A stretch of DNA of 64,000 nucleotides from Parvibaculum sp. Its GTDB lineage: Bacteria > Pseudomonadota > Alphaproteobacteria > Parvibaculales > Parvibaculaceae. The notes below the pieces were generated by a model. The model made no database searches, was not told the origin of the DNA, and saw only the letters and a list, made by a program, of their open reading frames with translations. The stretch is from positions 930,001 to 994,000 of the forward strand of contig JAUSMV010000030.1 in NCBI GenBank assembly GCA_030645235.1, in the 5' to 3' direction. The position numbers were made by a program, and so were the translations under genes. The stretch's first letter is position 1, and every line of letters starts with the position of its first letter. Shown piece after piece: positions 1 through 13,154 of this stretch.

Positions 1-2824
1 GCGACAATTCTGCGCCTGCGCGCGCACGCATGGTGTCGGACGCGATGCCATCCAGCGCAAAAGCACCCGCGCCGCCGCCTGTTTCGCTAAAGCCGTCGCG
101 CTCCACATGCTGGTAGGTCACACCTGCCTGCGGAGTGAGCGTGAAAGCGCCGTTGAGCGGCAGATCATGGCCGATGCCGAGACCCGCGCCGCCTGACCAG
201 GCTTCCGGTGCGCCGCGCGCCGTGAGAAGAACGCCGCCCGCCAGCACATTGCGTGACACGGATTGGTCCTGATAGGCCGCTGTCAGTGCGCCCGTCGCCC
301 ATGTGCTGCCCGTCTTGTAAGAGCCATAGGCGGCTGCGTGATAGCCGTCGATGGTTGAGCGCGAGCCGCCGCCTGCGGTTGTCGCCTTGCCATCGAGATA
401 GCCGCCTGCGAGGCCGAACTTCATCTCGCCGCTTTGCCAGATGTCGCCGCCGAAGGCGCCGCCCGTATTGCGGCTCTCAAAGCCGCGCGATAAGCCATCG
501 CCCGCGCGGTCGGAGCGGTCCGAGAGGGTCGTTGCCCAAAGCGTTTGGCCCGTACCGGCGCTGCGGCTCGCCTGACCCAACACCGTGTCGAGAAAGAGGA
601 AGCCCTGCGATGCACCTGCCGACATTGCACCGTTGAGGCTTGAGGATGATGTTGAAACCAGTGTCAGAACATTGGGATTTGAATAATCAAGCACGCCTGC
701 ACCGGCGAAAGCGAACGCGCCTGTGATGCCGCCGGTTGCGGTGAGAATGTCACCGGCAAAGCCGTCCGTGCCGCCTGTAAATGTCGCCTGCAAGATCGCG
801 CCCGGATCAATCGTCACCGTGCCCGGTGCGCCCGACACATTAAGCTGGTCGGCCAGACCACCGGCGATTTCAACATCAAAGACCGAACCCGCCGCCATGG
901 TGACGGAACCCACGACATTCATCACACCGGGCGACTGGCCGGGCGCGAGCGTGCCGTAGTTGGTGATATCGCCTTCGATGAGTCCTGTGCCGCCCAGCGT
1001 CGCGCCTTGTTCAATCGTGATGCCTGACGACGCATAGAGATTGCCGATCGCGACAAGTTTGCCGGAATTGATTGTGACCGTATCAGCAAACGTGGAGGTC
1101 AGTGTCCCGAGCGTCCATGTGCCTGTGGCATTCACAGTCAGTTCGTCAAAGCCCAAGACATTGTCGATGAGCGTGCCTGCGCCTTGCAGCACCAGACTGT
1201 CGCCATTGCCGCTGCCGCCGCCTTCGATAGAGCCGATGATCGTTGCCGAATTGAGAATGACCGTGTTGCTAAAGCCGCCGTTCATATCAATCGCGGTGCC
1301 GCCCGTGCCGACGACTGTGCCGTTGATGGTGATCGTGTCGAAGGTGTCGCTCACATAGAGGCCGTTGTAGCCCGAGAGATAGGCGTTCTCACCGAGAAAA
1401 ACGGAATTATAGAACCCCCCCGCCATCACAATCGCAGGCGCATCGGCTGCCAATATTTGCGCCTGGCCATTGAGCGTGATGGTGCTGTCGATATTGCCGC
1501 CGAGCAGAAGGCCGACCATACCACGCGGCCCCATTTCGGCATTGGTCGTGTCAATCGTCGCATAGTCGTTGAGCGCAACTTCGTTCCCCAAACCATAAAC
1601 GGCAACGCCCGCACCGCCAGAATTTGCGTAGCCGTTCATCGTCACAGAAGAGTTGCCGTTCAGCGTCAGCTGTCCGTAAGCGCTGTTCATCACGACGCCG
1701 ATGGCGTCTTGCGCTTCGACGAAATTGAGCGTGACGTTCGCACTGTCATTGAGCGTGATGTTGACGTAATCGCCGCCCGCGCCGATGCCGGAAACATAGC
1801 TCGCTACGCCGCCATCGGCATTTACACGCACAAAGCTCGTGCCGTTGAGTATCACGGATGTGTAGTCACCGAACTGGCCGATGCCTGCATAGTCACTGGA
1901 GCCGCCGGTGCCATAGACCCGCACATTGGCCCCTCCGTTGAGCGTGATCGTACCGAAATCGCCGCGCTGCATCGTGCCGACAATCGTGCCGGTGGCTGCA
2001 TCCTGAGCCGTGACCAGGACGAAGCCGTCATTGAACTCAATGTCGGAGGCATAGGCGAGCGGACCCGGTCCGTCGCCTATTTCGAGAATGCCGTAGATAT
2101 TCGCATTGGTCGTCGCGGCGGCGACATTCACCGTCACGCTGGCGTGATCTTCAAACGTGATCGTGCCGCGTTCGTCCGTGTCTGTAGCATAGTTGATCAC
2201 GTCCATGCCGTTGTAGTCCGTGCCCAGACCGCCATAGCCGCTCACACTGATATGCGTGTCGGCGTTGAGCGTGATCGTATGATTGCGCGAGTGGACCACG
2301 AGACCGGCATAGGACTCTGCGTCGGTGCCTGCTGTTTCCAGCTCCACCGACGAACCGCCGGAAGCGGCGCTGAACGTGAATGTGACATTATCGCCGTCGA
2401 GCAAAATGGCGGGCGTTGACTCGCCCGTCGATGTCGCACGCACGTCGCCGCCATTGATGATGAGCGTTGCATCATCGCCATATGTATCAATCGTGCCGTA
2501 ATAGTCAGAGCCGGTGCTTGTGGCCAATGAGGTCGGGTTGAGCGTTATGGTGTTGCGGTCACCGACAAGCTGAACCGCCGGACCACCCGTGCCGGAAATA
2601 TCCGCGCCGGCCGCAATCGTCACACTCACATCATCGGCTGTGCCGGTGACGGGCGTATTGCCGGGCCCTGTACATGTGATGACCGCATTATTTGCGACCG
2701 GGCCGCCCGAACAGGCAGCATAGGCCGGACTTGCCCCGAGGATGCCCGCGCCGAACATGAATGCGCCTGCCGCCAGCGACGACGTGCCGAGCAGTTTCGT
2801 CCTCAAACTGAATGAAAATGACAT
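1..2824 (-). CDS. Autotransporter (type Va secreted), 3-prime truncated by window edge
   Basis: The gene reads leftwards from the ATG at 2824 and runs off the window at position 1, so the end of the beta-barrel is missing. It starts with a signal peptide (MSFSFSLRTKLLGTSS..., cleavage near SPAYA). A long passenger follows, rich in Ile-Thr-Leu-Asn-Gly and Asn-Ala-Ser motifs, as expected for a right-handed beta-helix. At about 350-650 the sequence matches the start of an autotransporter barrel (LDTVLGQASRSAG, GYLDGKATTAGGGSRS, AAYQDQ). The barrel and the linker before it closely resemble the next gene upstream (2995-6813), so the two are tandem paralogues. By family knowledge the barrel inserts in the outer membrane and exports the passenger. 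What the passenger binds is unknown. The same reading frame holds at both the start and the barrel, with no frameshift seen. Confidence 0.88.
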   Translation of the reverse strand, partial: MSFSFSLRTKLLGTSSLAAGAFMFGAGILGASPAYAACSGGPVANNAVITCTGPGNTPVTGTADDVSVTIAAGADISGTGGPAVQLVGDRNTITLNPTSLATSTGSDYYGTIDTYGDDATLIINGGDVRATSTGESTPAILLDGDNVTFTFSAASGGSSVELETAGTDAESYAGLVVHSRNHTITLNADTHISVSGYGGLGTDYNGMDVINYATDTDERGTITFEDHASVTVNVAAATTNANIYGILEIGDGPGPLAYASDIEFNDGFVLVTAQDAATGTIVGTMQRGDFGTITLNGGANVRVYGTGGSSDYAGIGQFGDYTSVILNGTSFVRVNADGGVASYVSGIGAGGDYVNITLNDSANVTLNFVEAQDAIGVVMNSAYGQLTLNGNSSVTMNGYANSGGAGVAVYGLGNEVALNDYATIDTTNAEMGPRGMVGLLLGGNIDSTITLNGQAQILAADAPAIVMAGGFYNSVFLGENAYLSGYNGLYVSDTFDTITINGTVVGTGGTAIDMNGGFSNTVILNSATIIGSIEGGGSGNGDSLVLQGAGTLIDNVLGFDELTVNATGTWTLGTLTSTFADTVTINSGKLVAIGNLYASSGITIEQGATLGGTGLIEGDITNYGTLAPGQSPGVMNVVGSVTMAAGSVFDVEIAGGLADQLNVSGAPGTVTIDPGAILQATFTGGTDGFAGDILTATGGITGAFAFAGAGVLDYSNPNVLTLVSTSSSSLNGAMSAGASQGFLFLDTVLGQASRSAGTGQTLWATTLSDRSDRAGDGLSRGFESRNTGGAFGGDIWQSGEMKFGLAGGYLDGKATTAGGGSRSTIDGYHAAAYGSYKTGSTWATGALTAAYQDQSVSRNVLAGGVLLTARGAPEAWSGGAGLGIGHDLPLNGAFTLTPQAGVTYQHVERDGFSETGGGAGAFALDGIASDTMRARAGAELS

Positions 2825-2905
2825 GTCCCGCGCCCCCGCTGTGACCAATCACCCGGGGCCGCACACCACACGCATGTGGCTTTCCTGTTTTTCACTGCCC
2901 CCCAA

Positions 2906-2994: not shown

Positions 2995-5900
2995 CTACCA
3001 TTCCATGCGGGCACCGAGGCGCCAGCCGCCGGAGCGCTCTGCATCGCCACCAAAACCGCCGTCATAATTGACGAAGGCCGTGACGCCGTAGCCGACTGTC
3101 ATATCGACGCCTGCACCGACCGCAAGATAGGTCTGGTCGCGGCTGTCGAGATCGCCGTTAAAGGCCGCGCCTGTTGTACGGAATGTACCGGTTGTTGACG
3201 TGTCGCCATTGCGCCATTCCTGCGCCAGGGCGGCATTGATCGACGGGCGCACCTTCCACAGAGCATTTTTATCGGCGACGTTGAGCGCCAGTTCTGCGCC
3301 GACGCGACCGCGGATCGTATCGGTGGCGATTTCGTCAAGCGCCAAAGCGCCGGTGCCGCCGCCTGTTTCGGTATAGCCGTCACGTGTCATGTGCTGGTAG
3401 CCGAGGCTTGCACGCGGCGTGAAGGTAAAAGCGCCGTCGAGCGGGAACTCGTGGCCGATGCCGAAGCCGACACCGCCGAGCCATGCTTCGGGCGAGCCTT
3501 GCGCGCCGACCAGAACACCGCTGGAGAAAACATTACGTTTCGCGTTCTGATCCTGATAGGCCGCTGTCACCGCTGAGGTGAAATACGTGCCGCCGAACGT
3601 GTAGGTGCTGTAAACAGCCGCGTGGTAGCCCTCAATCGAGGTCCGCGAGCCGCCGCCTGACGTCACCGCATCGCCGTCGAGATAACCGGCGGCGAGACCG
3701 AGCGTGAAATCACCCGCGCTCATCACGTCGCCACCAAAGGCACCGCCATTGCTATTTTGATCGAAGCCGCGCGACGAGGTTGTAGCGGCCGTGCGCGTGG
3801 ACTTGCTCCAGAGCGCCGTGCCCCAGAGTGTCCTGCCGACAGAGGCGCTCTTCTGCGCTTCGTTGAGAACCGTATCAAGGAAGGTAAAGCCCTGCGCGGC
3901 ACCGGCGGACATGCCGCCGTTCATGCTGGATGACGAAGCCGCCGTCAACGAGACCGAGCCCGGTGTGCTGTAATCAAGCGCCGCGCCGCTGCCGGGCGTG
4001 AACGTGCCGGTCACGCTTGCGCCCGTTACGATGTCGCCGACGAAGCCGTCCGCACCGGGGAAGAATGTCGGTTGAACAATCGCACCAGGATCAATCGTGA
4101 CGGCACCCGTCGCATTGAGAAGGTCGGCTGCCGTGTCACCGATTTCCACCTCAAAGATCGAACCGGCATTAAAGGTCACGGGGCCGACGACATTGAGGGT
4201 GCCGGGTGAGTTACCCGGCGAGACCGTACCGCCGGCAAGAACAGTGACCGTACCTGTGATCGTACCCGCGCCGCCGAGAACACCGCCTGAGTGAACCGTG
4301 AGATCGTCCGCGGTCAGCGTACCGTTAACCGCGAGGCGACCGGCGATGATATCGACTTCATCAGCTGTGTTGGTTGAACCGACGGCGAGGTTCCAGTAGT
4401 CGCCGTCCATCGTGACGAGGCCGAAATCCTCGAAACCTTCATTAAGGATACCTGTACCGGCGAGGGTCAACTCGTCGGAGCCGCCGCCAAGCACCGAGCC
4501 GATAAGCTGCGCACTGTCGAGGGTCACAGAGTTGTTGGTGCCGCCTGATACGTCGATGGCAGTCGTACTACCGGCATCAAAGTGACCGATAACGAGGCCC
4601 GCCACGTAAAGGTTGTTTTGATTGCCGGTCAGCAAGATGCCGACTTCGCCTATGACAGCCGTGCCTTTTCCGACATTGACGGTTGTGTTGTCGCCTACCG
4701 AGTCAATGCCCGCCGCGTAGAAGCCGCCGTAAATGACGGCGCTGTCGTTCAGGGTGATTGTGACGCCGTCGCCGCTAACCCGCACACCGTCCACATAGGG
4801 GGCATAATAGGCTTCGACCATCGAGTGGCCGTTCATGGTCAACGTGTCGCCGTCGCCGGCCAAATAGACACTCTGGCCGAATGCATCATCAGATGCAGCT
4901 ATACTGATCCGCGCATCATCGTTCAGCGTGATCTGGTTGCTGTAGCCCGATGAGAAGATGCCGGTGACGTAGTTGCTGTCGTCCTGAACGTAAATGTTCA
5001 CTCTTGAATCGCCGTTCAGCGTCACGGTCGCGCCGCTACCGGCAATAGCGATACCCAGATATTTGGTATCTGCGCCTTCGCCAGCGCCGGTGATGTTCAC
5101 AGACGATGTGCCGTTCAGGACAACGCTGGGCGCCGCATCGCCCGGTGTATTGAAGGCCAGGATGCCCACATAGCCTTTAGCATCCGTGCCGCCGACCCAT
5201 TCCTCCAGGTCTTCGTCATAATGCGCACCGACATTGATCCGGCTCGCACCGTTCAGCGTGATCGGATTGCCGCCACCGAGCGACATGATACCGGTATACT
5301 TATTATCCTCGCCGTTGCTGCCTCTGATATTGATGAAGCTGTCATTGAGGGTGAGGGGCCCCATAAATTTATCCACACCGCCATAGCCGGCATTCATAAT
5401 GCCGATATATTTTGAGTCTGACGCTCCGCTGCCCTGCACGGTCACATATGAACCCGCATTGAGCGTGATGTGGCCGGTCTCAGCCGCATATTCTGCAAAA
5501 TCGACAGAGGTGATGCCGATATACTTGCTGGTGATGCCTTCACCATGCGCGTTGAGTGTGACGCCTGAGCCGCCGTTCATTTCGACAACCGGCGCATAGC
5601 CTTTGGCGGCAATGCCGAACATGTTGCTTGATTCAACATCTGTGTTCAGCGTGACGGTCGAGCCACCGCCGAGCGTGATGTGCCCGAGCTTGAAATCTTC
5701 GTCCATGCCGATAATAGAAACGCCGTAGACTTCCGCACTGCCCCCGGAACCATACGCATTGACGGTGACCGACGAGCCATTCGCAAGAGCAATCCCGCCA
5801 ATGGCTGTGTCGGAGAGGTTCTGCTGAAAGACCGCGATACCGGCATATTTGTTGTCGTCGCCGGCGCTCTCACCCGTAACGGTGACCGATGAGGCATTGA

Positions 5901-6813
5901 GCGTGACATGGGCGTCCGCACCACCAACGCTGAAAATGCCGGCATATTTCTCTTCGTCTGAAGCGCCCGCGCCGGACACGTTGATCGAGGAATTGTTCAG
6001 CGTGATGTCAGCTGCATATTTGTCATCATCGACCGCATGGGAGAGAATGCCCATCATGCTACCGGCCGTATCGGTACCATTGCGCGAGACATTGATCGAC
6101 GAGCCGCCGTTCAGCGTGATCGTATTACGGTTGGCCGAGGTTAAGGCCGTGTTCTGAAAGACGACGCCGTAATAGTCGTTTTCGACGATCTCGCTCGGGG
6201 TCGCCTCATCGCCAAGGCCTGTCACATTGATCTGTGACTCGCCGTTCAGCGTGATGGAAATTTTCTCGCCGAAGGCCTCAATGCCACCGGCCTGATGATC
6301 GTCATATTTGTTGTCGTAGCTGCCGCCGATGAAATTAATCGACGAGCCGCCGTTCAGAACAATGTTTGAACCGTCAAAACCCTGAATAGAGAGTGCATAG
6401 GAATCCTGGTCCAGATTGTATTGCGTCAGCGTGATCGACGCGCCGCCATTGAGTGTCACGTCACCGCTGTTATGGGCCTGAACCGCATTGCGCGTGTCAC
6501 CAGTGGCAGTCGCGGTTGAATCCGCACCCATGACAAGGGCTGAATTGTCATCGTACACGCCAATCGCGACTTCACCGTCCGTATCGACATGCGCGTCGGA
6601 GTTCAATGTGATCGTCGTGTTGTCGTCTGTTGTGTAAACACTGTAGGGAATATTTCCGGTGCAGGTGATCGTGATGGTGCTCGTGCCTGCCGTGACGCAG
6701 GAGCCTGCCGGAGGGAGGGCGAGCGCGGGAGACGCACCGAGCCAGAATGTTCCGGCAACTGCCAGAGCCGATGTGCTCAGCAGTTTCGTGCGCAAGCTCA
6801 GATTTCTGGCCAT
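2995..6813 (-). CDS. Autotransporter with long repetitive beta-helix passenger
   Basis: This is a complete 1272-residue autotransporter. Residues 1 to about 33 form a signal peptide (MARNLSLRTKLLSTSALAVAG, cleavage near PALA). The passenger (about 35-950) is built from roughly a dozen imperfect units of 40-45 residues. Each has an ITLNG.S.INV.G.G strand segment and many have a KYxGI motif (for example DSKYIGIMNAG, DNKYTGIMSLG, DTKYLGIAIAG), as expected for a right-handed beta-helix stalk. A VLAGGTVSPGNSPGT segment typical of the passenger/barrel junction follows. The last 280 or so residues are the outer-membrane barrel, ending RLGARMEW. It is paralogous to the neighbouring gene at 1-2824, and a hairpin terminator follows it. 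By family knowledge the likely role is surface adhesion or aggregation; no catalytic motif was seen. Confidence 0.92.
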   Translation of the reverse strand: MARNLSLRTKLLSTSALAVAGTFWLGASPALALPPAGSCVTAGTSTITITCTGNIPYSVYTTDDNTTITLNSDAHVDTDGEVAIGVYDDNSALVMGADSTATATGDTRNAVQAHNSGDVTLNGGASITLTQYNLDQDSYALSIQGFDGSNIVLNGGSSINFIGGSYDNKYDDHQAGGIEAFGEKISITLNGESQINVTGLGDEATPSEIVENDYYGVVFQNTALTSANRNTITLNGGSSINVSRNGTDTAGSMMGILSHAVDDDKYAADITLNNSSINVSGAGASDEEKYAGIFSVGGADAHVTLNASSVTVTGESAGDDNKYAGIAVFQQNLSDTAIGGIALANGSSVTVNAYGSGGSAEVYGVSIIGMDEDFKLGHITLGGGSTVTLNTDVESSNMFGIAAKGYAPVVEMNGGSGVTLNAHGEGITSKYIGITSVDFAEYAAETGHITLNAGSYVTVQGSGASDSKYIGIMNAGYGGVDKFMGPLTLNDSFINIRGSNGEDNKYTGIMSLGGGNPITLNGASRINVGAHYDEDLEEWVGGTDAKGYVGILAFNTPGDAAPSVVLNGTSSVNITGAGEGADTKYLGIAIAGSGATVTLNGDSRVNIYVQDDSNYVTGIFSSGYSNQITLNDDARISIAASDDAFGQSVYLAGDGDTLTMNGHSMVEAYYAPYVDGVRVSGDGVTITLNDSAVIYGGFYAAGIDSVGDNTTVNVGKGTAVIGEVGILLTGNQNNLYVAGLVIGHFDAGSTTAIDVSGGTNNSVTLDSAQLIGSVLGGGSDELTLAGTGILNEGFEDFGLVTMDGDYWNLAVGSTNTADEVDIIAGRLAVNGTLTADDLTVHSGGVLGGAGTITGTVTVLAGGTVSPGNSPGTLNVVGPVTFNAGSIFEVEIGDTAADLLNATGAVTIDPGAIVQPTFFPGADGFVGDIVTGASVTGTFTPGSGAALDYSTPGSVSLTAASSSSMNGGMSAGAAQGFTFLDTVLNEAQKSASVGRTLWGTALWSKSTRTAATTSSRGFDQNSNGGAFGGDVMSAGDFTLGLAAGYLDGDAVTSGGGSRTSIEGYHAAVYSTYTFGGTYFTSAVTAAYQDQNAKRNVFSSGVLVGAQGSPEAWLGGVGFGIGHEFPLDGAFTFTPRASLGYQHMTRDGYTETGGGTGALALDEIATDTIRGRVGAELALNVADKNALWKVRPSINAALAQEWRNGDTSTTGTFRTTGAAFNGDLDSRDQTYLAVGAGVDMTVGYGVTAFVNYDGGFGGDAERSGGWRLGARMEW

Positions 6814-6980: not shown

Positions 6981-7475
6981 CTAATCCGCCGCCAATTTGA
7001 AGTGATCCCACCAGCACACACGAATCTGACTGCCTTTGTCCGTATAGCCCACCAACGTCAGTCCCGCATTCAGCACGGGCCGGGCGCCATAGCCCTGATT
7101 GGCAATGACAGCGGCATAGCCCGCTACCTCGGCTTGCGGGTTGGCAAGCGACCATTGACGCAGCGACTCTCTGAACAAAAAAGTCAGTGGCACGACAAGA
7201 CCTGACTTTTCGGCTTCCGGCCGGACGAGAAGCCGCATGAAGGCAAAGCGCTGACGGAGCGGCTCATAGATATGGATCTGAGCGGTTGAAATGGCCACAA
7301 GCCGGTCGCCCGAATAGGCAACCGCTACCAGTTCCTTGGCGCGCGCCTCCGCCGAGACCCCAGGCATCAGGCGTCCCGTTTCTTTCCACATTTCAATGGC
7401 ATCGCGCTCGAATTTTGGATTTTCGAGCTTCCAGGCAGGCAAGAACTTCACATCGGGCAGCGTTGCAGCACTCAT
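6981..7475 (-). CDS. Small GNAT-like protein, copy A of three
   Basis: This 164-residue protein is the last of three consecutive paralogous genes on the minus strand. Shared blocks are FLPAWK near the N-terminus, RQRFAFMR followed by RPE...G..VPLT, a LRQWS..NPQ segment, and a C-terminal AGLTLVGY...G.Q.R..WWDH. The RPE...G..VP helix region resembles the acetyl-CoA pyrophosphate loop of GNAT acetyltransferases, but the match is weak and the substrate is unknown. The ATG at 7475 was chosen because it overlaps the upstream gene's stop in an ATGA arrangement and matches the N-termini of the other copies. A longer in-frame start exists but reads through the upstream gene. Confidence 0.7.
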   Translation of the reverse strand: MSAATLPDVKFLPAWKLENPKFERDAIEMWKETGRLMPGVSAEARAKELVAVAYSGDRLVAISTAQIHIYEPLRQRFAFMRLLVRPEAEKSGLVVPLTFLFRESLRQWSLANPQAEVAGYAAVIANQGYGARPVLNAGLTLVGYTDKGSQIRVCWWDHFKLAAD

Positions 7476-7966
7476 GACACAGGTATCCTGAAATGATCCC
7501 ACCAAAACACGCGGACCTGATGGCCGTCGGGCGTATAACCGACCAATGTGAGTCCCGCAGGCAGAATGGGCTGCGCCATATAGTGCTTGTCCGTGACGAC
7601 CGCACCATAGCCAGCCAGCAACTCCTGAGGGTGGTCGAATGACCATTGGCGCAAGGTCTCACGCAAATGCACTGTGAGCGGCACGGCCAGTCCCGCTGCT
7701 TGCGCCTCAGGCCGCATCAGCATGCGCATGAAGGCGAAACGCTGACGCAGCGGCGCATAGGGTCTGACCTCAGCCGAGGTGATGCCCACAAGCCGGGCGC
7801 CCTTATAGGCCAGCACGACCAGTTCCTTCAGTCGCTCTTCCGGCCTCACGCCCGCCGGCATGACCCCCATCTCACGCCACATCGCCATGGCGTCGCCCTC
7901 GAGTGCGGCGTCGCCCCGCTTCCAGGCGGACACATAGCGAATGTTTGAGAGAAAGTCTGCGCTCAT
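7472..7966 (-). CDS. Small GNAT-like protein, copy B of three
   Basis: This 164-residue protein is the middle member of the tandem triplet. It starts MSADFLSNIRYVSAWKRGD and keeps the family blocks RQRFAFMRMLMRPEA, LRETLRQWS, AGLTLVGYTPDGHQVR and WWDHF. It begins 5 bp after the stop of copy C and overlaps copy A by 4 bp, so the three are almost certainly one transcript. The alternative reading frames of copies A and B also resemble each other, which means the duplication is still visible at DNA level. The function is unknown; a GNAT-like fold is an inference from the RPE...G..VP helix segment. No signal peptide or membrane segment is present, so it is probably cytoplasmic. Confidence 0.7.
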   Translation of the reverse strand: MSADFLSNIRYVSAWKRGDAALEGDAMAMWREMGVMPAGVRPEERLKELVVLAYKGARLVGITSAEVRPYAPLRQRFAFMRMLMRPEAQAAGLAVPLTVHLRETLRQWSFDHPQELLAGYGAVVTDKHYMAQPILPAGLTLVGYTPDGHQVRVFWWDHFRIPVS

Positions 7967-7971
7967 GGCCG

Positions 7972-8454
7972 TCACGCGACCGGCAACCGGTAATGGTCCC
8001 ACCAATAGAGCCGCACCTGCTGGCCGTCCGCATTGTAACCGGCATGGACAAGGCCCGCCGCCGTTACCGGCGTTTTGCCATAGCCTTTGGCGGAAATGGC
8101 AATGGCAAAACCCGCCACCTTCTTCTGCGGATTGGCTTTCGACCATTCGCGCAGTTCTTCCCGCATCGCAATGGTCATGGGCACGACAATGCCCGCCTTT
8201 TCAACCTCAGGACGCAGGAGAATACGTCCGAAAGCGAAACGCTGACGCACGGGCGGATGGGTCTGAACCTCCGCCGTCGTCACGCCGACCAGCCGCGCAC
8301 CGATATAGGCTGAAACGACGAGCTGGGTTGCCCTCTGCACCAGGTCGATATCAGGCGGCAACATGCGGAGTTCCTGCCACAGCGCCAAGGCATCAGCCTG
8401 CAATTTAGGGTCATTCCGCTTCCATGCGGGCACAAAGCGCAGATTATCAGTCAT
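7972..8454 (-). CDS. Small GNAT-like protein, copy C of three (first in operon)
   Basis: This 160-residue protein is the promoter-proximal member of the triplet. It starts MTDNLRFVPAWKRNDPKLQ and contains VRQRFAFGRILLRPEVEKAG, MREELREWSKANPQ, and a C-terminal GYNADGQQVRLYWWDHYRLPV. It is the most diverged of the three by eye, for example MTIAMREEL where the others have LT..(L/F)RESL or RETL. Its start faces the amidohydrolase gene at 8589 across about 130 bp, so that interval must hold two divergent promoters. No catalytic residues can be assigned with confidence. A GNAT-like acyltransferase fold is the best guess. Confidence 0.7.
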   Translation of the reverse strand: MTDNLRFVPAWKRNDPKLQADALALWQELRMLPPDIDLVQRATQLVVSAYIGARLVGVTTAEVQTHPPVRQRFAFGRILLRPEVEKAGIVVPMTIAMREELREWSKANPQKKVAGFAIAISAKGYGKTPVTAAGLVHAGYNADGQQVRLYWWDHYRLPVA

Positions 8455-10439: not shown

Positions 10440-13154
10440 ATGGACAACCCCGAACCGACCTCGCCCGATCCTGTACCGGCGCGCAAATTTTCCGCTGCCC
10501 GCGTCATCGCCTTTGCTCTCTTCGTGCTGCCCATCGTCATCATCGCCAATCTGGCGATCTGGGCAGCCTTCAATCAGCCACATGAAGCAGAAGCCTGGAC
10601 CGGTGAAATTGTCGGCTTCTCCTACAGCCCCTATCAGCGCGAGCAGGATCCGACCAAAAACACCCATCCGACGCATGATCAGATCGCAGCTGATCTCGAA
10701 CTTCTGTCGGGCACCGTGCAGGCGATCCGTACCTATTCGGTCATTCGCGGGCTTGAGGACATTCCCGATCTCGCCGCTGAAGACGGGCTTTCGGTTGCCG
10801 CAGGTGCATGGATCAGCGGCGACAAAGCGCGTAACGATGAAGAAATCAAAAACCTCGTCGCTCTGGCCAAGAAACGCAATGTCGTGCGCGTGCTTGTCGG
10901 CAATGAAAGCCTGCTGCGCAACGATCTCCCCATCTCCGAACTCATCGACTATATCCGTGCGACGCGCAAAGCCGGTGTCTGGAAACCGATCTCGACCGCC
11001 GAGCCGCCGCATATCTGGCTCACCAATCCTGAACTTGCCAAGGAAGTTGATTATATCGGCGTGCAGATCCTGCCCTATTGGGAAGGCATCCCTGTCGAGC
11101 GCGCTGTTGATGCGGTGTTTGAACGTCTCGACGAGCTTCACGCCAAATTTCCGGACAAGCCCATTGTCATTACGGAAGTGGGCTGGCCGTCGCGCGGCAA
11201 GATCATTCCGCGCAAACCTTATCCCGGCATTCCCGAAGCTGAACTGTCGGGCGAAGCCGTTGCCTCGCTCGTCAATCAGGCGACCTTCATGCGCGAGTTT
11301 CTCAACCGCGCCAAAGATGCCGACCTCACATACTATGTGATGGAAGCCTTCGACCAGCCGTGGAAAGTGTCTGAAGAAGGCGCTGCCGGTGCCTATTGGG
11401 GCATTTACAATGCCGATCGTCAGCCCAAATTCCCGATGAAGGGCACGATCTCGGAAGCGCCGGAATGGCGTCTCTGGGCCTCCATCGCCGCCGGTCTCGC
11501 ACTTGTGCTGGCTGTCGCTTTCATGATGATCCGCCAGCACGTCAAACCCGCAGGCGTCATCATTTTCACCATCGTCACACAGATCGCAGCCTCGGCCTTT
11601 GCCTGGGCCGGGCTGTCGGTCACGGGTCTCTATCTCAGTTCCGTTGATACGGTTGTGTGGACCTTCCTCTTTGCCGCGCAGGGCCTGCTCCTGATGGTGC
11701 TGCTTGCGGAAGCCATTGAGTTTGTCGAGGTCATCTGGACACGCCACGGCGAACGTCACTTCACGCCCTTTGCGCATCCCGATGGTTACTATCCGTCCAA
11801 CAAAGTCTCGATCCATGTGCCCATTCACAATGAGCCGCCGGAAATGGTGCGTGAGACGCTGATTGCTCTGAGCAAGCTCGACTACAAAAACTTTGAAGTC
11901 CTTGTACTCGACAACAACACGGTGGACCCCAAAGTCTGGCAGCCGGTGCGCGAAACCTGCGCCGAACTCGGACCGCATTTCCGTTTCTTCCATCTGGAAA
12001 ACTGGCCGGGCTTCAAAGCCGGTGCGCTCAACTTCGGTTTGAAGATGACCGCCGAAGATGCCGACATCATCGCCGTCATCGACAGCGATTATCAGGTTAA
12101 TCCTGATTGGCTGCGCACGATGGTTCCCTACTTTGTCAAAGAAGACATCGGTTTTGTTCAGTCGCCGCAGGATTATCGCGACGGTCACGAGAGCATGTTC
12201 AAGAACATGTGCAATTGGGAATATGCCGGTTTCTTCCATATCGGCATGGTTCAACGCAACTACTTCAACGCCGTCATTCAGCACGGCACGATGACGCTGG
12301 TGCGCAAATCCGCCCTCATCAAAGTCGGCGCATGGGCCGAGTGGTGCATCTGCGAAGACGCCGAGCTTGGTATCAAGCTTTACCGCGAAGGCTATGACAG
12401 CGTTTACATCAACCACTCGTTTGGTAAAGGCCTCACGCCTGACACGCTGGCAGGCTATATCGGCCAGCGCTTCCGCTGGGCTTATGGTGCCGTGCAGATT
12501 GTCAAACATCACTGGCGCTCGCTCGCCCCCTGGGCCCGCAAAGGCGGGCTGACATCGGCGCAGCGTTATTATTTCCTCGCCGGTTGGCTGCCTTGGTTTG
12601 CCGATGGTTTGGCACTTCTTTTCACCATCACCTCCATCGGGCTTTCCGTCTTCGCGCTCTATGCGCCGAAGATGGTGCAGCTTCCGGTCGCCGCCTTCCT
12701 CATTCCCACCATCGGCAGCTTCGTCTTCAAATTCGTGCGCTCGCTCTGGCTCTATGCCGTGCGCGTCAAAGATTGCAGCTTCATCGAAAGTCTGGGTGCC
12801 GGCGTCGCGGCGCTTGGTCTCACGCATACGGTTGCCAAAGCCATGCTCAACGGCATGGTGACATCGGGCAAACCTTTCTTCCGCACCCCCAAATGCGAAG
12901 ACAAGCCGCCGCTTGCCGCAGCACTCATTCAGGTCCGTGAAGAAGCGATCATGCTGGCCGTGCTCTGGGGACTGTCCGCGTCATTCCTGATGAACGAAAA
13001 CTTCCACGACAATCTCTCGCTCCTCTGGGTCGCGGTGTTGCTCGTGCAGTCGGTGCCTTACGCCGCAGCGGTTCTGCTCTCGTTCATCAACGTGCTGCCC
13101 GCTTTGTTCAAATCAAAGCCCGCTCCCACAGGGGCTTTGTCAGCGGCGGAGTAA
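10440..13154 (+). CDS. ndvB: NdvB-like beta-glucan synthase: GH17-like domain fused to GT2 glycosyltransferase
   Basis: This 904-residue inner-membrane protein has two catalytic-type modules. After a transmembrane segment (about 20-42), residues 55-330 form a GH17-like (beta-1,3-glucan) domain with the expected glutamates in VGNES (E156) and ITEVGWPS (E246). Two membrane segments follow, then a GT2 glycosyltransferase domain from about residue 455 with VPIHNEP, a DSD metal motif, the acidic pair of CEDAELG, and the QRFRW motif of processive synthases. Further membrane helices close the protein. This architecture matches NdvB of Pseudomonas and related beta-(1,3)-glucosyltransferases, which make periplasmic (often cyclic) glucans from UDP-glucose; the GH17-like part probably remodels or cyclises the chain. 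A bidirectional terminator follows. The Shine-Dalgarno is weak, so the start is moderately certain. Confidence 0.85.
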   Translation: MDNPEPTSPDPVPARKFSAARVIAFALFVLPIVIIANLAIWAAFNQPHEAEAWTGEIVGFSYSPYQREQDPTKNTHPTHDQIAADLELLSGTVQAIRTYSVIRGLEDIPDLAAEDGLSVAAGAWISGDKARNDEEIKNLVALAKKRNVVRVLVGNESLLRNDLPISELIDYIRATRKAGVWKPISTAEPPHIWLTNPELAKEVDYIGVQILPYWEGIPVERAVDAVFERLDELHAKFPDKPIVITEVGWPSRGKIIPRKPYPGIPEAELSGEAVASLVNQATFMREFLNRAKDADLTYYVMEAFDQPWKVSEEGAAGAYWGIYNADRQPKFPMKGTISEAPEWRLWASIAAGLALVLAVAFMMIRQHVKPAGVIIFTIVTQIAASAFAWAGLSVTGLYLSSVDTVVWTFLFAAQGLLLMVLLAEAIEFVEVIWTRHGERHFTPFAHPDGYYPSNKVSIHVPIHNEPPEMVRETLIALSKLDYKNFEVLVLDNNTVDPKVWQPVRETCAELGPHFRFFHLENWPGFKAGALNFGLKMTAEDADIIAVIDSDYQVNPDWLRTMVPYFVKEDIGFVQSPQDYRDGHESMFKNMCNWEYAGFFHIGMVQRNYFNAVIQHGTMTLVRKSALIKVGAWAEWCICEDAELGIKLYREGYDSVYINHSFGKGLTPDTLAGYIGQRFRWAYGAVQIVKHHWRSLAPWARKGGLTSAQRYYFLAGWLPWFADGLALLFTITSIGLSVFALYAPKMVQLPVAAFLIPTIGSFVFKFVRSLWLYAVRVKDCSFIESLGAGVAALGLTHTVAKAMLNGMVTSGKPFFRTPKCEDKPPLAAALIQVREEAIMLAVLWGLSASFLMNENFHDNLSLLWVAVLLVQSVPYAAAVLLSFINVLPALFKSKPAPTGALSAAE

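Follow-up and report, generated by a model that had tools for sequence, protein, structure and literature searches.

Dedicated enzymes that modify internal lysines of exported proteins are known from the RTX toxins. HlyC transfers acyl groups from acyl-ACP onto internal lysines of an exported protein, and ApxIC is GNAT-like in fold but lacks the usual CoA-binding elements, as described in the consulted sections of PMC8339906. For type V secretion, the consulted sections of PMC8151025 describe TibC and Aah as dedicated cytoplasmic modifiers of autotransporter passengers, place the sugars of TibA mostly in the loops connecting the beta-helix strands, and attribute cytoplasmic glycosylation of the passengers of autotransporters and related adhesins to two unrelated enzyme families. 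In P. lavamentivorans DS-1T, growth on most surfactants at high concentration needs a solid surface, which is believed to support biofilm formation (PMC3368416, sections consulted). Our search of the open-access literature, covering titles and the beginnings of abstracts, found no work that links autotransporter passengers with GNAT proteins or with lysine acylation. The combination of a GNAT-fold gene with an autotransporter passenger appears to be new, each half having a known parallel. Here, we describe three such genes, designated A, B and C, which we propose, with a probability of about 0.58, to encode dedicated cytoplasmic lysine acyl/acetyltransferases of autotransporter passengers.

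The window analysed, a stretch of 64,000 nucleotides from a genome of the genus Parvibaculum (labelled G000), carries at 6981-8454 three consecutive small paralogues, as originally predicted; all lie on the minus strand and overlap or nearly abut. GNAT-fold gene A (160 aa; 7972..8454) and gene C (164 aa; 6981..7475) were each recognised by an ORF and a family profile match, and gene B (164 aa; 7472..7966) by an ORF and an AlphaFold2 model. The stop of A and the start of B are 5 bp apart and B overlaps C by 4 bp (ATGA); longer ORFs are taken to be upstream extensions. The view of the trio as one operon is supported in that the genes form a single co-directional set. No obvious signal sequence was seen by eye at the N-termini of the three proteins, which share 49%, 49% and 54% identity. 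A search of the host genome with A matched B at 1.6e-53 and C at 2.8e-52, values at which the likeness is not due to chance. Of the motifs given in the original prediction as common to the trio, RQRFAF, RPE...G..VP (read here as RPE....G..VP) and WWDH are present in A, B and C, whereas LR.WS..NPQ is matched exactly by A and C but ends in HPQ in B. WWDH is, however, a feature of a clade rather than a family signature: of 49 members, 6 have tryptophan as the second aromatic residue, and the C-terminal end across these 49 is Q-x-R-x-x-W-F-x-H.

The trio had also been thought to derive from a DNA duplication that was not very old, a view contradicted by both third codon positions, at which identity among A, B and C is 0.42-0.49, and a tree of 49 family domains. 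The closest partner of C in this tree belongs to another species, G003 (99/96), whereas A groups first with a G018 gene and next with a second gene of G003 (97/92 and 99/94); the tree does not settle the position of B. The divergence of A and C thus took place before those species separated, and the duplication is old rather than recent.

The family had been called unrecognised, and this stands: profile searches of Pfam and NCBIfam with A, B and C gave no match near any cut-off, and no Pfam GNAT model matched them at E ≤ 10. Among 42 family members, Acetyltransf_1 of Pfam matches 15 weakly, and the best GNAT E-value is 1.1e-4 (Acetyltransf_7; single-member cut-offs are not given with this value). 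The GNAT-like nature that had been suggested, with structure prediction of all three proteins as the means to check it, was borne out for B, the one protein that the model covers. AlphaFold2 modelled B together with 24 relatives at a pLDDT of 94.1 and a pTM of 0.87, and the model follows the GNAT order b1-a1-a2-b2-b3-b4-a3-b5-(a4)-b6-b7 with helix a4 missing. The 50 PDB matches listed by Foldseek are all GNATs (best E 8.5e-5), as are the 50 listed by VIA (Z 12.5, 135 aligned residues, 3.1 A). The canonical CoA pyrophosphate loop [QR]xxGx[GA] is found in a single member out of 49, gene B itself (QAAGLA, residues 89-94), and the central loop position (92) is glycine in 10 of the 49. The GNAT order of the model and the rarity of this loop together point to a GNAT fold whose donor loop is altered, and the latter makes the use of acetyl-CoA doubtful.

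The chief rival to our reading draws on the same features. It holds that these proteins are GNAT-fold pseudo-enzymes which bind KY (Lys-Tyr) motifs as dedicated secretion chaperones of the passengers and perform no chemistry. It agrees with the conservation pattern of the 49 members: 48 lack the canonical CoA motif, yet W30, G119 and W155 are present in every member and R152 (48/49) and H158 (47/49) in nearly all. The linkage and KY correlation described below would suit a binding partner equally well. We nevertheless consider it unlikely, since the predicted fold of B has kept the GNAT core with its strand 4-helix 3 unit, and the PaiA acetyltransferase, a weak PDB profile match (E 0.089) which we take to bind CoA, likewise has no central glycine in its CoA motif.

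Our surveys found the family almost exclusively in Parvibaculum, with members in 21 of 27 genomes of the genus. A wide distribution was ruled out by the remaining counts: 0 of 71 other genomes in the same survey, two non-genus genomes added by a class survey of 385 genomes (both of one other genus, in an order with members in 2 of 4 genomes), and one weak fragment besides the host genome in a phylum survey of 398 genomes. A contig scan added two further records, labelled Proteobacteria and Actinomycetota as deposited; an earlier scan of contigs, in which gene C was the sole query, had given no relative. Second tandem arrays are present in the host genome (four paralogues on another contig, C36:231747-233762, L009) and in G003 (six members, C33:26750-29946, L081). 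The array of the host genome lies among genes for CtaA, a Cys/Met PLP enzyme, MerR, HU and a FabH-like protein.

The original prediction had missed this array of four paralogues and also the autotransporters downstream of the trio, which are the best clue to function. Gene C is followed after 167 bp by autotransporter 1 (1272 aa; 2995..6813, minus strand), which is composed of a beta-helix passenger and a PF03797 beta-domain (1.5e-44) and is read in the same direction; two more autotransporters come after it in tandem. Autotransporter 2 (1..2848, minus strand) reaches past the window edge and corresponds to a frame of 1045 aa in L155. Between autotransporters 1 and 2, a 14-pair inverted repeat with a T-rich tail (2911-2942) is terminator-like on the minus strand; a promoter and terminator scan gave counts not above those of shuffled sequences (4 vs 2.8; 6 vs 5.2).

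The linkage extends to other genomes. An autotransporter gene lies within 1 kb at 16 of 30 family loci, against an expectation of 0.23 that is slightly low because 94 of the 111 autotransporter rows of these genomes were used. The autotransporters concerned belong to two separate clades. Two family genes precede four tandem autotransporters in G003 and one autotransporter in G015. The G003 array also holds a family-gene remnant behind its first autotransporter (L065, about 12474-12751), a single stretch interrupted by two internal TGA, as would be left by an earlier alternation of gene-autotransporter cassettes. In 13 genomes, one family gene, fused in two of them, stands beside an autotransporter of the other clade, which measures 1.9-2.2 thousand residues where complete. 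In G013, the one family gene found is next to an autotransporter of 1912 aa. At 11 of the 13 loci of this larger clade, gene and autotransporter are convergent and hence not one transcript; the two co-directional cases are those with fused genes (G019 and G014), in which the fused member is directly downstream of the giant autotransporter. The two-domain fused members (L078:6077-7252, L078:12373-13398 and L080:4859-6040) come from two species, one with a frame of 391 aa and a further one of 341 aa, the other with a frame of 393 aa. Strict co-occurrence of the family with autotransporters was rejected, since five of the six member-less Parvibaculum genomes have autotransporters and the sixth is 57% complete.

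The other 14 loci, including the four-gene array of the host genome, have no autotransporter within 1 kb. Five are at curli genes (Curlin_rpt, CsgH) and represent a curli-linked family clade in five Parvibaculum genomes (L082, L083, L138, L137 and L141), two are beside related outer-membrane proteins (G018:C12 and G004), one is at a contig end (G021), and no such neighbour was found at six (G002, G000:C36, G003:C33, G018:C7, G019:C3:135k and G023:C319); the gene kept in G002 belongs to the autotransporter-linked clade, but no autotransporter adjoins it. Outer-membrane barrels beside members were recognised by Pfam in G018:C12 and G345, and by sequence cluster in their respective relatives in G004 and G257. 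The outer-membrane-type proteins at L084:7975-8946 and L135:5976-7082, beside related members, carry one KY each, apparently in the same place. Curlins were rejected as substrates with a gene-dependent lysine motif, their lysines being similar beside family genes and in genomes lacking one (by eye and lysine count). As the curli-linked members are without a matching lysine signal, either the clients of the family may differ in kind, or five species may have inherited a curli linkage that arose once by chance. The members beside curli genes and outer-membrane barrels would also suit a family that tunes surface display in general, i.e. autotransporters, curli and outer-membrane proteins alike, by modifying a shared factor such as a chaperone; this leaves the passenger-specific KY signal unexplained and we hold it to be very improbable.

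KY, the basis of that signal, was first spotted by eye in the adjacent passengers and counted afterwards, in 97 autotransporter frames (20 adjacent and 77 not adjacent to a family gene in the assembly) as compared with 133 beta-domain matches. The adjacent set includes every tandem-array member in G000 (3) and G003 (4); a frame of 738 aa in L077 was dropped, not being the adjacent autotransporter, and the partner in G022, cut by a contig end and outside the 97, has 3 KY. The passenger was defined as the frame minus its 60 first and 290 last residues in the adjacent set, and as extending to the beta-domain in the set of 77. The 20 adjacent passengers contain 104 Lys-Tyr against 13.3 expected from composition, a ratio of 7.8 that is the highest among dipeptides occurring at least 30 times in them. 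In 18 of the 20, no more than 6 of 2000 shuffles attained the KY count. At least 3 KY are likewise present in 18 of the 20, the exceptions being L155:7215 (0) and L065:9064 (1). The first of these is autotransporter 2, whose passenger has a single Lys.

The first 20 control autotransporters, fetched from the same genus to test KY, have 0 KY against 1.7 expected. After 57 more had been added, 75 of the 77 non-adjacent passengers were without KY, and the total was 9 against 13.2 expected. The two that have KY, L229 (8) and L213 (1), are orthologues of the adjacent class, with 86% and 93% identity to its autotransporters, and both lie where a contig ends. With these two left out, at least 3 KY were found in 18 of 20 adjacent and 0 of 73 non-adjacent passengers (Fisher 2.6e-17, a value uncorrected for kinship). 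Four autotransporter passengers of 782-918 residues (L209, L226, L167 and L171) are free of lysine altogether. Within 17 kb around the four-gene array of G000 and the six-gene array of G003, a crude gene caller called no gene with at least 2 KY. A DNA-level motif behind KY was ruled out by codon choice and by restriction to the reading frame. AAA precedes Tyr in 80 of 104 cases in the passengers vs 48 of 63 in other genes of the loci, and the pattern occurs 106 times in frame vs 30 times across the five other frames. Since the codon choice for KY resembles that of other genes, selection acts on the protein.

Shared ancestry is a rival explanation of this pattern. In the reading to which it leads, the proteins are ordinary small-molecule or N-terminal GNATs whose genes lie near autotransporters through inherited synteny, and two passenger lineages inherited KY without a causal link. 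Twelve of the 20 adjacent autotransporters are indeed orthologues in one clade. A beta-domain tree was built from 95 sequences, two of the 77 with short beta-domains being left out, and on it the KY state changes 8 times, with KY in two separate clades. Phylogenetically independent contrasts in adjacency, drawn without L213 and L229, number 4, of which on average 3.8 agree and 0 are opposite (p 0.125); p stays above 0.05, and with only four contrasts available it cannot drop below 0.125. Of 6 contrasts led by KY, 4 agree and 2 are without a difference in adjacency. We rank this reading just behind the pseudo-enzyme one and find it improbable, because each of the two clades also holds non-adjacent relatives without KY (L206, L209, L226 and L196 in one and L174 in the other) and no passenger of the 73 non-adjacent ones reaches 3 KY.

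Two of the relatives lacking KY belong to genomes in which the family is absent: L174 to G024 and L187, which is a partial relative, to G007. Passenger alignments gave ten overlapping pairings of a KY passenger with one lacking KY; in nine of them the latter is a non-adjacent relative, and in the tenth it is the window neighbour that has no KY. The 32 alignable K positions are occupied by D (8), T (4), V (4), N (3), S, G, Y, E and K (2 each) and F, R and A (1 each); the tyrosine is sometimes kept, and the remaining K positions fall in gaps. By these alignments, the KY lysines have mostly been replaced or lost in related autotransporters that have no family gene.

The passenger of autotransporter 1 has 8 KY against 0.54 expected. 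Its residues 40-660, modelled by single-sequence AlphaFold2 with a pTM of 0.80 and a moderate mean pLDDT of 71, form many short regular strands in a beta-solenoid-like arrangement. A Foldseek comparison of this model with solved structures gave weak matches, many of them beta-helices and none at E ≤ 0.001. Four of the sites, all on the minus strand, are at a turn/strand boundary, where K ends the turn and Y begins the strand (residues 289, 5944..5949; 322, 5845..5850; 468, 5407..5412; 505, 5296..5301). At residue 584 (5059..5064) a strand starts with K, at 430 (5521..5526) KY is within a predicted strand, and at 265 (6016..6021) and, with low confidence, 169 (6304..6309) it is in a loop.

From the above, we suggest the following mechanism for the proposed acyl/acetyltransferases. 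The family protein would be made with or beside a type Va autotransporter and would target the lysine in the KY motifs that recur close to the corners at which the turns of the passenger beta-helix rungs pass into strands. Modification would take place in the cytoplasm before or during Sec export, and the mature adhesin would display rows of neutralised or acylated lysines. A wider claim, to which we give somewhat less than even odds, is that GNAT-fold lysine acyltransferases constitute a new class of type V secretion accessory enzyme, each co-evolving with its autotransporter, and write a periodic acyl-lysine "KY code" on beta-helix adhesins. On this claim the donor, given the degenerate CoA loop, may be acyl-ACP, in which case the adhesins would be studded with fatty acyl chains, in surfactant-degrading bacteria. 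A lysine-directed third modification route with a readable two-residue motif, in an environmental host with a complete genome, would make the choice of passenger by modification enzymes and the roles of the mark in adhesion and biofilm directly testable. A motif that is nearly present or absent is, moreover, a rare handle for assigning substrates to GNAT-fold proteins.

In fold, RimI, Ard1, Naa50 and Naa60 are among the closest solved structures to B in the matches listed; these enzymes have N-terminal acceptors and a canonical CoA motif, and they share 8-16% sequence identity with B in the listed alignments. In setting, the HMW1C-type N-glycosyltransferases resemble the family, in its proposed role, in being co-transcribed cytoplasmic modifiers of type V adhesins, as far as the consulted sections of PMC8151025 describe them, but they are glycosyltransferases and belong to another enzyme family. 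TibC and Aah modify autotransporter passengers, as is proposed for the present family, and the sugar-bearing loops of TibA recall the KY sites near turns. They differ in transferring heptose to Ser/Thr through an enzyme of GT-B type (PMC4358343, sections consulted), while the present family has a GNAT fold and its acceptor would be lysine. By analogy, the RTX toxin-activating lysine acyltransferases may be regarded as the nearest precedent for the proposed mechanism. HlyC and ApxIC resemble the family in the GNAT-like fold of ApxIC, in the absence from ApxIC of the usual CoA-binding elements and, putatively, in being dedicated to an exported protein and using its internal lysines, on the strength of the sections cited above. 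They differ from it in that PF02794, the HlyC family, is not among the 11 Pfam families matched by the 42 members at E ≤ 1, in that the partner here is a type V autotransporter and not an RTX protein, and in that one or two lysines are modified there, as opposed to the many short KY motifs found here.
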